Positions 33,511 through 38,896 of a stretch of 38,897 nucleotides of DNA are shown here, piece by piece; position 1 is the first letter of the stretch, and every line of letters begins with the position of its first letter. Location of the stretch: positions 1 to 38,897 of the forward strand of contig JAIXVM010000238.1 of NCBI GenBank assembly GCA_027482995.1. The letters are read 5' to 3'. The DNA comes from Hyphomonadaceae bacterium (GTDB taxonomy: Bacteria > Pseudomonadota > Alphaproteobacteria > Caulobacterales > Hyphomonadaceae). The position numbers and the translations under genes are program-made. The notes beneath the pieces are model-generated. The model had not been told where the DNA came from. It saw nothing but the letters and a program-made list of their open reading frames with translations, and did no database searches.

Positions 33511-34386
33511 ATGGCGATCTGTCCCTATGAACGAAAAGACCCCGTGATCTACGCCGCGCAGCGCCACCAGCTCGGCGTGCGGGTGCGCGATGGCATGCCG
33601 GTGCGAGCGGCCGCGCGGGTGCTGAACATTCCCTATTCGACGGCCTGGCGCTGGGTGGCGCTGGACGGATTGCGGCGCGCCGACCGCGCGGCGGACGCCG
33701 CGGGGCAGCCGCGCCCGCCGGTGGGGCGATGGGCGCGGGATACGCGCAAGGCGCTGAAGCCGCGGCCCTCGCCGGAGGAGACGGGCGACGGTCTTCCGCC
33801 GTCGGACTATCCGGAGCTGAAGGGCCTCGCGCCGCGGGCGCGGCTGGCCGCGCTTGGCCGGCTGGCGGACTTGGCGGAGGCGCGCGCGCTGGCCGCCATA
33901 GAGGAGGGGTGCATCACGTTCGGGCTGGCCTCGTTGCGGGAGGCGCAGCGGTTGCGGCGTGCGTGGCGGGTTCTGCGTGAAGGGCCGGACCAGGATCCGG
34001 AGCTTGAGGCGGCGGACGAAGGCGAGCAGGACTGGCGGGCGGGGGTCGCAGAGGAGCTGTGCGCGCTGGCCGAAGGACGGGAGCCTGTGCGCCCGCCGCC
34101 GCGGCCAAAGACGGAGGCGGATCTCGTCTCGGATGAGATCTGGGCGGCGATCCATGCCGCCGAGGCCGAAGACCTTGCACGGCGGGGCGTGACGCGGGCC
34201 GACATCGATGACGAGGCGCATGCCTTCCGGCAGCTCGACCTGTTGCAGGAGCACCAAAGGCTGATGCGCGCCCGGGCGCGCTGGGTGAGCCTGCCGGGGC
34301 GGACGCCGCCGGTGATCGTGGTGCGCCTGCCGGAGCGGCGGCGGGGCTGGCTGAAGGAGAAAGAAGAAAGGCGCGGTGCCTTTTGA
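33511..34386 (+). CDS. Hypothetical protein with N-terminal HTH
   Basis: 291 aa; RDGMPVRAAARVLNIPYSTAWRWVALDGLRRADRAAD resembles an HTH; rest highly charged/helical; followed by a hairpin overlapping its stop codon. Confidence 0.65.
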   Translation: MAICPYERKDPVIYAAQRHQLGVRVRDGMPVRAAARVLNIPYSTAWRWVALDGLRRADRAADAAGQPRPPVGRWARDTRKALKPRPSPEETGDGLPPSDYPELKGLAPRARLAALGRLADLAEARALAAIEEGCITFGLASLREAQRLRRAWRVLREGPDQDPELEAADEGEQDWRAGVAEELCALAEGREPVRPPPRPKTEADLVSDEIWAAIHAAEAEDLARRGVTRADIDDEAHAFRQLDLLQEHQRLMRARARWVSLPGRTPPVIVVRLPERRRGWLKEKEERRGAF

Positions 34387-35063: not shown

Positions 35064-35123
35064 CCGAGCAGGCCGCGCGCCGGAAGGCGCGTGGCGGGGA
35101 TAATCTGTGGGCGGACGTTTCTT

Positions 35124-35167
35124 CTCCCCTCGCCCCGCTTGCGGGGAGAGGGGCCGGGGGTGAGGGG
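35124..35167. repeat. REP-like element CTCCCCTCGCCCCGCTTGCGGGGAGAGGGGCCGGGGGTGAGGGG
   Basis: Palindromic core CCCCGCttGCGGGG with a GGGGTGAGGGG tail; intergenic. Confidence 0.75.
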
Positions 35168-35204
35168 ACTACGATGAGGCGGTGCACTTCGGGGAGAGGT
35201 TGAG

Positions 35205-35281
35205 CCCCCTCACCCCCGCGCTCAGGAAATCGTATACGATTTCCTGTCTTCGCGCGCCCCTCTCCCTCCTGGAGAGGGGGG
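35205..35281. repeat. Inverted second REP-like copy interrupted by a 22-bp perfect palindrome
   Basis: CCCCTCACCCCCGCGCTC-[AGGAAATCGTATACGATTTCCT]-GTCTTCGCGCGCCCCTCTCCCTCCTGGAGAGGGG. Confidence 0.75.
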
Positions 35282-35283
35282 CT

Positions 35284-35577
35284 TTAGAGGTCCTCAAACA
35301 AGTCCAACGTCTCGTCGCTGGGGCGTTTGCCGCGAAGGCGGTCGAAGCAGGGGTGGGGGATGAGGCGGCCGGAGGGGAGGATTTCGCTGATGGCGGTGCC
35401 GCCATGCTGCGGGCGGGAGACGCGGATGGCGGCGCTGCAATGCGGGCAGCGCTCGTCCCAGCCCTGGCGGGGCGGGGGCTCGTCCGTGTCGGGGAGGTAG
35501 TAGACCGTGGCGGCGACCTTCGAGCGCTCCGGCCGGTCGCTCGCATTGCGGAAGTGTTCCTTGCGGTGAATCCACAT
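35284..35577 (-). CDS. Conserved-looking hypothetical protein (97 aa) with CPHC motif
   Basis: MWIHRKEHFRNASDRPERSKVAATVYYLPDTDEPPPRQGWDERCPHCSAAIRV...; upstream spacer and GC3-rich codon use. Confidence 0.55.
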   Translation of the reverse strand: MWIHRKEHFRNASDRPERSKVAATVYYLPDTDEPPPRQGWDERCPHCSAAIRVSRPQHGGTAISEILPSGRLIPHPCFDRLRGKRPSDETLDLFEDL

Positions 35578-35705
35578 CTCGTGGGCGTCTCCTTCGCGTT
35601 GGCGCTAGGGATAGCAGGGAGGGGTTAAAGTTGGGTGGCGGTTGGAACATTCGCCTCGTGAAAATCCAAACCGGCGCACCCTTGGCTTGCTGGCAGAATC
35701 ATTGC

Positions 35706-35733
35706 CCAATTCGGTCGGCTGGGCTTGAATTGG
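35706..35733. promoter_or_regulatory. Dyad upstream of the two-gene cassette, candidate operator
   Basis: CCAATTC-N14-GAATTGG. Confidence 0.35.
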
Positions 35734-35781
35734 TGCCATTTATACCCAAATCCGAAGCCAGAATTAGCCAAAAGGTGTCCC

Positions 35782-36384
35782 ATGACCAGTCAAGATAGCC
35801 GTGTCCATCTTTCGATAAAGCCCGATGGATCAATAGAGATAGACTGCCCACCCGAGCACTTTTCTGCGGCGATAGAGAAAACGAAGGAACTGGCACAGGC
35901 TCTAAATCTGGCGAATGCCAAACAACCCGCAAAGCCGGCCGATGTCGTACTGGATGCCGAAGATGTTCCCGCATCCAATAAACCTAAAGGTAAAAAGGCG
36001 CGTACTCTTGGCGGTTCATCGGGCCGCACTGGCAGAATCGGGAGCTTTGAAGAGGTCAAAGGTCTGCTGACGGAAGAGCAGGAAATTGCACTTCGTGGGT
36101 TTATGCAGGGTCTAAATCTCGCGGAACAAAAAGATGAAGTATTGGTCGCCATGTACAAAGGCGAAGAGTTGTTGGGCCGCAAAGGCTTCTCATACAACGA
36201 AGTTTACACATTGATGTGGCTAGGCGGGATCAAAGAGCTTCCCAAGGCACTCGATCAAGTTCTTCGCGACATGATTGGCGAGCAATTGATTGTGCGCAGC
36301 GACAAAGGTTTTGAGGTGAAGTTTGTTGGACGGGCGCGGGTCGAAAAGGATTTGCAGAAGGTGAAGGAAGCCCCGGGTGGATGA
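35782..36384 (+). CDS. Hypothetical protein with predicted C-terminal winged-helix domain (first gene of low-GC cassette)
   Basis: MTSQDSRVHLSIKPDGSIEIDCPPEHF...; C-terminus KDEVLVAMYKGEELLGRKGFSYNEVYTLMWLGGIKELPKALDQVLRDMIGEQLIVRSDKGFEVKFVGRARVEK reads as wHTH. Confidence 0.75.
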   Translation: MTSQDSRVHLSIKPDGSIEIDCPPEHFSAAIEKTKELAQALNLANAKQPAKPADVVLDAEDVPASNKPKGKKARTLGGSSGRTGRIGSFEEVKGLLTEEQEIALRGFMQGLNLAEQKDEVLVAMYKGEELLGRKGFSYNEVYTLMWLGGIKELPKALDQVLRDMIGEQLIVRSDKGFEVKFVGRARVEKDLQKVKEAPGG

Positions 36385-37126
36385 ACAAGCGGTTGTTAAG
36401 GGGATCGTTGAACAACGCCTGACGGAACTAGAAGCAAGCATTCGGTACGTTTGGTTTCGAACGGCAGTTGTCGGGGATAAGCAAGTACCCATTTCTGACG
36501 TGCTCGATTTCTTTCCACGACATGCGATTGGACACCCAAATTCGACGCGGCTGAAGCAAAAGATAATTGCTGACAAACGGACGCTTTATTCGAAAGCGTC
36601 GGGCTCCATTCGGCTCAAAGCAGTTGCTGTTGCTGAAATGCAGGAACTGCTCGACTCGACAGAAAAGCAGCCTACGCCATCCGAACAGCAAGTTGGCCAT
36701 CTCGAAGTCGAGGTTTTGCGGATTAAGTCGGAGCAGACGCGCTCGTTCGTTACCGAGGCCGTTAATTGCGCTAAGTCTGGAAATCCGAGAGCCGCGATAC
36801 TTATGTCGTGGATTGGAGCGGTGGCTCTTCTTCAAGATTATGTGTTTGATAACAAGCTGAAAGAGTTCAATGCCGATGCGGTGGCAAACGGAGTATTAAA
36901 ACGTCCGGCTACGAACATTGAAGACTTAAGGGGGATTTCCAAGGAGAGTCATTTTCTTGATAGCTTGCAGCGCATTTCTGTGATCGACCAAGCCACAAAA
37001 AGGGGGCTGAAAAGATGTCTCGACCGCCGAAATGACGCAGGTCATCCATCCGAGATTAAGTTTTCAAATGCGGCAGTCGGCGATCATCTAGAAACTTTGG
37101 TTCTGAACGTTTTCCAAAAGTACTAA
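36377..37126 (+). CDS. Hypothetical protein with HEPN-like RX4H motif (second gene of low-GC cassette)
   Basis: GTG start overlapping the upstream stop by 8 nt; C-terminal AAILMSWIGAVALLQDYVF...LDRRNDAGHPSEIKF contains R-N-D-A-G-H (37028-37045). Confidence 0.75.
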   Translation: MDEQAVVKGIVEQRLTELEASIRYVWFRTAVVGDKQVPISDVLDFFPRHAIGHPNSTRLKQKIIADKRTLYSKASGSIRLKAVAVAEMQELLDSTEKQPTPSEQQVGHLEVEVLRIKSEQTRSFVTEAVNCAKSGNPRAAILMSWIGAVALLQDYVFDNKLKEFNADAVANGVLKRPATNIEDLRGISKESHFLDSLQRISVIDQATKRGLKRCLDRRNDAGHPSEIKFSNAAVGDHLETLVLNVFQKY

Positions 37127-37177
37127 ACATGCACCGAGCAGTGTTTGGAAACATCGCGCTTAAACTCTCGCTAACCC

Positions 37178-38896
<1,719 letters not shown>

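Follow-up and report, generated by a model that had tools for sequence, protein, structure and literature searches.

The window analysed here is a stretch of 38,897 nucleotides from the draft genome of a Hyphomonadaceae bacterium (335 contigs, ~85% complete), in which two overlapping plus-strand genes lie beside uvrB. Gene 1 (35,782–36,384) encodes a partner protein of 200 amino acids that has homologous partners in relatives, and gene 2 (36,377–37,126) encodes a predicted effector of 249 amino acids. Both open reading frames were confirmed, as was the 8-nt overlap (36,377–36,384, plus strand) that places the GTG start of gene 2 inside the end of gene 1; the overlap and a weak start are conserved in relatives. 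The preliminary description had set the cassette at 35,706–37,126, of which the end stands and the start does not. Since AAGGTG lies just upstream of the ATG at 35,782, and relatives likewise begin shortly before the β-hairpin described below, gene 1 is best started there, and the true pair spans 35,782–37,126. A plausible ribosome binding site of gene 2, AAGGAAG, is located at 36,364–36,370, and no terminator or promoter was found around the pair by a prediction that covered one promoter type, sigma-70. The pair is AT-rich as first noticed, with a GC content of 0.51 for gene 1 and 0.49 for gene 2 compared with 0.65 for both flanks (0.50 for the pair versus 0.64 for the whole window), and the original hand count of 28 G+C among the 60 nucleotides at 36,541–36,600 is exact. 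The described setting between a repeat region and uvrB is also correct, with an inverted repeat upstream (35,155–35,218) and uvrB running on the minus strand from 37,178. The left neighbour of the pair is a small minus-strand gene, 'MWIHRKEH' (35,284–35,577).

An inserted block at a uvrB-adjacent hotspot

Comparison of the site by blastn across 15 genomes of the same genus revealed empty sites of 138–139 bp in two sister species (G442 and G023), whose flanks are 90–94% identical to the window. Homology to the empty-site species ends at about 35,637 and resumes at 37,178, the uvrB stop codon, and these breaks define 35,638–37,177 as an insertion or replacement block with a GC content of 0.50 versus 0.64 for the window. 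The two-gene cassette is a recently acquired insert.

In 14 other species of the genus, both flanking genes lie close together, separated by a gap of 139 to 3264 bp. Variable insertion next to uvrB, which the preliminary description had proposed as a check, is thus shown by the empty sites and by alternative cassettes in sister species: the gap between 'MWIHRKEH' and uvrB (35,578–37,177 in the window; L062, L070, L074 and L075) is a genus-level hotspot for interchangeable small cassettes. At this site, G441 carries a DUF5343 protein together with a Swt1-type HEPN protein, which is the PADLOC candidate pair PDC-M34 (E 5e-46 for PDC-M34A and 2e-38 for PDC-M34B), and in G007 the site holds three genes that form a version homologous to the window cassette. 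Two proteins are encoded there in G022: a small one, similar at its N-terminus to the third gene of G007 (P 3.5e-4), and another that we read, from its sequence, as having an RN...GH motif and possibly a winged helix. The site is occupied by a RelA/SpoT-domain protein in G009 and by a dCTP-deaminase-like protein in G013.

Two further elements were observed nearby. A palindromic intergenic element (35,107–35,290), with inverted arms at 35,155–35,170 and 35,203–35,218, lies just outside the hotspot. A helix-turn-helix protein, which gave us the impression of a small terminase-type protein, is encoded at 33,511–34,386 in the window, ~1 kb away from the site, and within the site in G007, G015, G022 and G441 (L072–L075).

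Predicted domains of the two proteins

The C-terminal part of gene 2 (residues 101–249; 36,677–37,123, plus strand) was identified as a HEPN domain by its AlphaFold2 model and by profile matches. When modelled with an alignment of 40 sequences, the domain forms a helical bundle with a pLDDT of 92–98 for nearly all of its residues, in line with the helical HEPN fold first suggested for it. The top-ranked PDB folds (2hsb, 2q00, Csm6 and HepT) are all HEPN proteins, but their Foldseek E values are weak, the best being 0.34. The RNDAGH sequence followed by proline, noticed at the outset, corresponds to residues 218–224 (37,028–37,048, plus strand) and constitutes a predicted RX4H catalytic motif, R218-N-D-A-G-H223-P. 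By itself, such a motif could be a chance occurrence. In the alignment, R218, N219, H223 and P224 are invariant in 40/40 sequences, as are E127, R138 and W145, and R218 and H223 are placed together at the end of one helix in the model, so that the anticipated conservation and adjacency of the two residues hold. Sequence and model together indicate that gene 2 is very probably a HEPN protein of the active type, with predicted RNase activity.

Pfam and NCBIfam searches gave no name for gene 1 or gene 2, and as a single sequence gene 2 matched only the PADLOC model of PD-T7-3 (E 2e-4) and an unnamed PHROG (E 1e-7). The PD-T7-3 model is matched by 38 of the 40 family members (best E 1.7e-8), and the family profile also matches the PDB entries named 'Dandelion' (9wx2, E 7e-5; 9wxf, E 5e-4), whose HEPN stretch is that of PD-T7-3 (PADLOC model match, E 1.5e-59). 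PD-T7-3 is a validated anti-phage gene; the protection that it gives E. coli is stronger for T-even phages than for T7 (PMC9519451).

The wHTH-like C-terminus proposed for gene 1 is borne out by the AlphaFold2 model, in which residues 89–196 (36,046–36,369, plus strand) form a winged helix, mostly with a pLDDT above 90. It is preceded by an N-terminal β-hairpin and helix (residues 9–46; 35,806–35,919, plus strand), carrying the motif KIRIKxGxIEIEYEG that is common to relatives, and by a disordered linker at about residues 47–88. Fold matches of gene 1 are MarR-like, with probabilities up to 0.99 and E values of 0.04 or worse. No match to gene 1 was obtained with PADLOC models or with the Pfam nucleotidyltransferase, nor in a single-sequence search of 385 genomes and 72,556 plasmids. 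The N-terminal part of gene 2 (residues 1–98; 36,377–36,670, plus strand) is probably a winged helix as well; residues 1–95 have a pLDDT of ~58 and are modelled without the wing.

Relatives, partner types and gene coupling

Of 385 alphaproteobacterial genomes sampled, 8 contain relatives of gene 2, the source genome included. A contig search of the genome collection gave no match with the single gene 2 sequence and 41 loci with an aligned query; an alignment of the first nine relatives had been too diverse to serve as a query. Counted among the 41 is L061 (457 aa), which was ruled out as a family member as it is a PD-T7-3-like single gene, and which had no megablast match in E. coli genomes. 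Altogether, the family comprises ~50 loci in Alpha-, Beta- and Gammaproteobacteria and in single Myxococcota and Chloroflexota assemblies, and no relatives of gene 2 were found in phage records or viral contigs.

Homologs rarely found together would, by the preliminary description, have refuted the pair, but they are almost always found together: of 48 informative loci, meaning distinct gene 2 loci with a visible neighbourhood and leaving out L034 and L035, which start at contig ends, 47 have a partner gene adjoining gene 2. The sole exception, L057, is a truncated remnant with an intact HEPN motif and no partner. Conversely, a type I gene 1 occurs as an orphan without an effector in G654 (L094). 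Partners of type I were found at 37 loci, those of type II at L011, L017, L018, L019, L060, L092 and in the window, and those of type III at L059 and, divergently transcribed, at L091. In addition, L020 encodes a gene-2-like HEPN protein with a partner bearing a PDC-M34A-like tail, which was counted as a partner and in which the winged helix is putative.

Several loci depart from the simple two-gene layout. In some loci, such as L013 (8808–9356), L021 (4949–5470) and L039 (4973–5500), a third gene stands ahead of the pair, marked by an N-terminal helical motif (ALxxLDxxxRxRV), and a gene of this kind is the only partner in L059 and L091. L042 (4942–6714) has a tandem pair of partner genes ahead of one effector. 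In L014 (7637–8375, G104), the HEPN-coding part of gene 2 contains an in-frame TAG and the effector is possibly broken, with an intact gene 1 beside it. The partner HMM also matches inside long open reading frames of the genome family f27.

The main partner HMM did not match the sequence-divergent gene 1 of the window, whose link to the type II partners comes solely from profile comparison, in which its winged helix aligned with the profile of the L011, L017, L019 and L060 partners (hhalign P 3.4e-5). The winged helices of the two genes are themselves homologous, since type II gene 1 aligns with the N-termini of type II gene 2 (hhalign P 2.5e-6) and of type I gene 2 (P 8.5e-6). In the window gene 2, the HEPN half is nearer to type I (141 bits versus 72), and the N-terminal half is nearer to type II, weakly so (HMM E 0.0015 versus 0.1). 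These comparisons are suggestive of a mosaic, in which a type I HEPN core would be combined with a type II gene 1 and, on weaker evidence, with a type II N-terminus of gene 2. If the two winged helices touch each other, they would be expected to be swapped jointly, although this is a single, suggestive case.

At type I loci, gene 2 starts within gene 1 or directly at its end, and nearly all of these loci offer TTG as the sole nearby in-frame start; at ~14 of them, TTG is the single standard start left by an in-frame stop upstream. The effector starts with ATG in L058, an exception, and with GTG in the window. In many loci, a GGAG/GAGG-like sequence lies 7–9 nt upstream of the TTG, within conserved C-terminal codons of gene 1. 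Across L021–L059, the end of gene 1 (for example L024, 5263–5273) thus combines a TTG start, unusually conserved for a weak start codon, with a ribosome-binding site encoded in LExKLA. The conserved TTG inside gene 1 suggests throttled and coupled translation of the effector, whose output would accordingly be low and tied to translation of its partner.

In the gene 2 tree, near-identical effectors appear in Sphingobium, Brytella (Acetobacteraceae) and Aquamicrobium, sequences from Rhizobiales and Rhodobacterales are intermixed, and the window gene 2 forms a long branch. Judged from the sequences, the pair is spread horizontally. The dN/dS values are 0.02–0.13 for gene 2, indicating purifying selection, and 0.10–0.19 for gene 1 in two pairs. 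As its ratio exceeds that of gene 2, the protein sequence of the partner changes faster, as that of a phage-facing sensor might. Genes next to the pair are mostly ordinary, and a few loci have restriction-modification, MADS or integrase genes. The setting is of the defence type, in that the hotspot cassettes include PDC-M34 and transfer is horizontal; in other genomes, the neighbours are only partly defence genes.

Proposed function and comparison with known systems

We consider it fairly probable that the pair is a horizontally moving module of the abortive-infection type, in which gene 2 would be the predicted HEPN RNase and gene 1 a partner that restrains it, senses the infection, or both. 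In such a module, the two proteins would form a complex in which the related winged helices make the contact and the HEPN dimer is held inactive. A phage cue, either a phage protein or phage nucleic acid to which the winged helices bind, would alter the complex, and the HEPN dimer would then cut cellular or phage RNA and growth would stop, as in abortive infection. This reading is favoured by the HEPN fold and motif, the homology of the HEPN half to PD-T7-3, the adjacent partner, the homologous winged helices, the horizontal spread, the purifying selection on gene 2 and the alternative cargo of the hotspot. Weighing against it are the weak Foldseek matches, the low-confidence N-terminal domain of gene 2 modelled without a wing, the ordinary surroundings of most relatives, the partnerless remnant L057 with its intact motif, and the lack of matches in phage records and viral contigs. 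The fold family, the invariant motif, the pairing, the mobility and the defence-type site are the elements that sequence shows; we infer that RNA is cut, that the proteins form a complex, and likewise the trigger, the abortive outcome, phage protection and the direction of control.

The same features could be read as a classical type II toxin–antitoxin system, with gene 2 as the HEPN RNase toxin, gene 1 as an autorepressing antitoxin open to proteolysis, and addiction as the reason for its persistence; this reading differs from abortive infection mainly in purpose, and we hold it to be rather unlikely. The order of the genes with the partner first, their overlap, the DNA-binding type of the winged helix and the weak conserved TTG start of the effector would all suit it, as would the occurrence of orphan gene 1 alongside a lone effector seen just as the truncated L057. 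However, barely related partner types serve one effector family, which fits the swapping of sensors better than neutralisation of a toxin, and the HEPN half is related to a directly anti-phage protein at an insertion site that trades with candidate defence pairs. It is improbable that the pair regulates transcription or RNA metabolism, the winged helices binding host promoters and the HEPN domain merely dimerising. Winged helices in both proteins and the MarR-like model of gene 1 would agree with this, but the invariance of R, N, H and P in all 40 sequences is unlike inactive HEPN domains, and a patchy distribution (8/385 alphaproteobacterial genomes) with horizontal transfer is unsuited to housekeeping.

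That the open reading frames arose by chance, or are genes in decay where a draft contig ends, was a possibility raised by the fragmented assembly and by the long branch of the window gene 2. It is refuted by the intact overlapping frames, the ~50 homologous loci, the strong purifying selection in relatives and the complete catalytic motif, and we give it a negligible chance. The mosaic make-up would fit the tentative idea, which we would not yet favour, of a wider and undescribed class of HEPN immunity modules, in which the sensor would consist of two matched winged helices, carried by the small partner and by the effector and swapped as a unit between HEPN cores, and the effector dosage would be throttled by a TTG start within the partner gene.

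With this pair, the HEPN immune effectors gain a two-gene family that is widespread and has no name. The HEPN core known from the single-gene defence protein PD-T7-3 is here linked to a modular build, in which the winged-helix partner is a protein of its own, so that the trigger of this core becomes a testable question. The uvrB-adjacent site, for its part, is a defence hotspot that is small and can be traced within one genus, where empty sites allow comparison.

The preliminary description recognised no named system with this pairing, which holds for the pair, but its HEPN half has a named relative in PD-T7-3. PD-T7-3/Dandelion shares the homologous HEPN domain with its R...H motif, and is a single protein of ~430–460 aa with an N-terminal HEPN domain and a long C-terminal part. 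In contrast, the 249-aa gene 2 carries its HEPN domain C-terminally, behind a domain of winged-helix type, lacks a C-terminal extension and nearly always has a partner gene. A literature search found no relevant paper on Dandelion, on PDC-M34 or on DUF5343 with HEPN. BxaP is structurally related to PD-T7-3; its N-terminus is predicted to be HEPN, its defence is likely abortive, and the P121A mutation in the N-terminal region lowered protection (PMC10799925). Compared by description, BxaP is a BREX/RM-associated single gene with a DUF4145-like N-terminus and a C-terminus likened to HEAT repeats. PDC-M34 resembles the window pair in that it is a candidate defence module of two genes, one for a small partner and one for a HEPN effector, and is found at the identical uvrB site in G441, but it combines a HEPN_Swt1 effector (M34B) with a DUF5343 partner (M34A), and the window pair matches neither model. 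HepT–MntA (HEPN/MNT) likewise has a HEPN toxin fold, an RX4-6H motif and an adjacent partner gene, and HepT is among the fold matches of gene 2; its partner is a minimal nucleotidyltransferase, whereas gene 1 models as a winged helix. By analogy, the window pair may work like other HEPN effectors that are encoded with partner genes.
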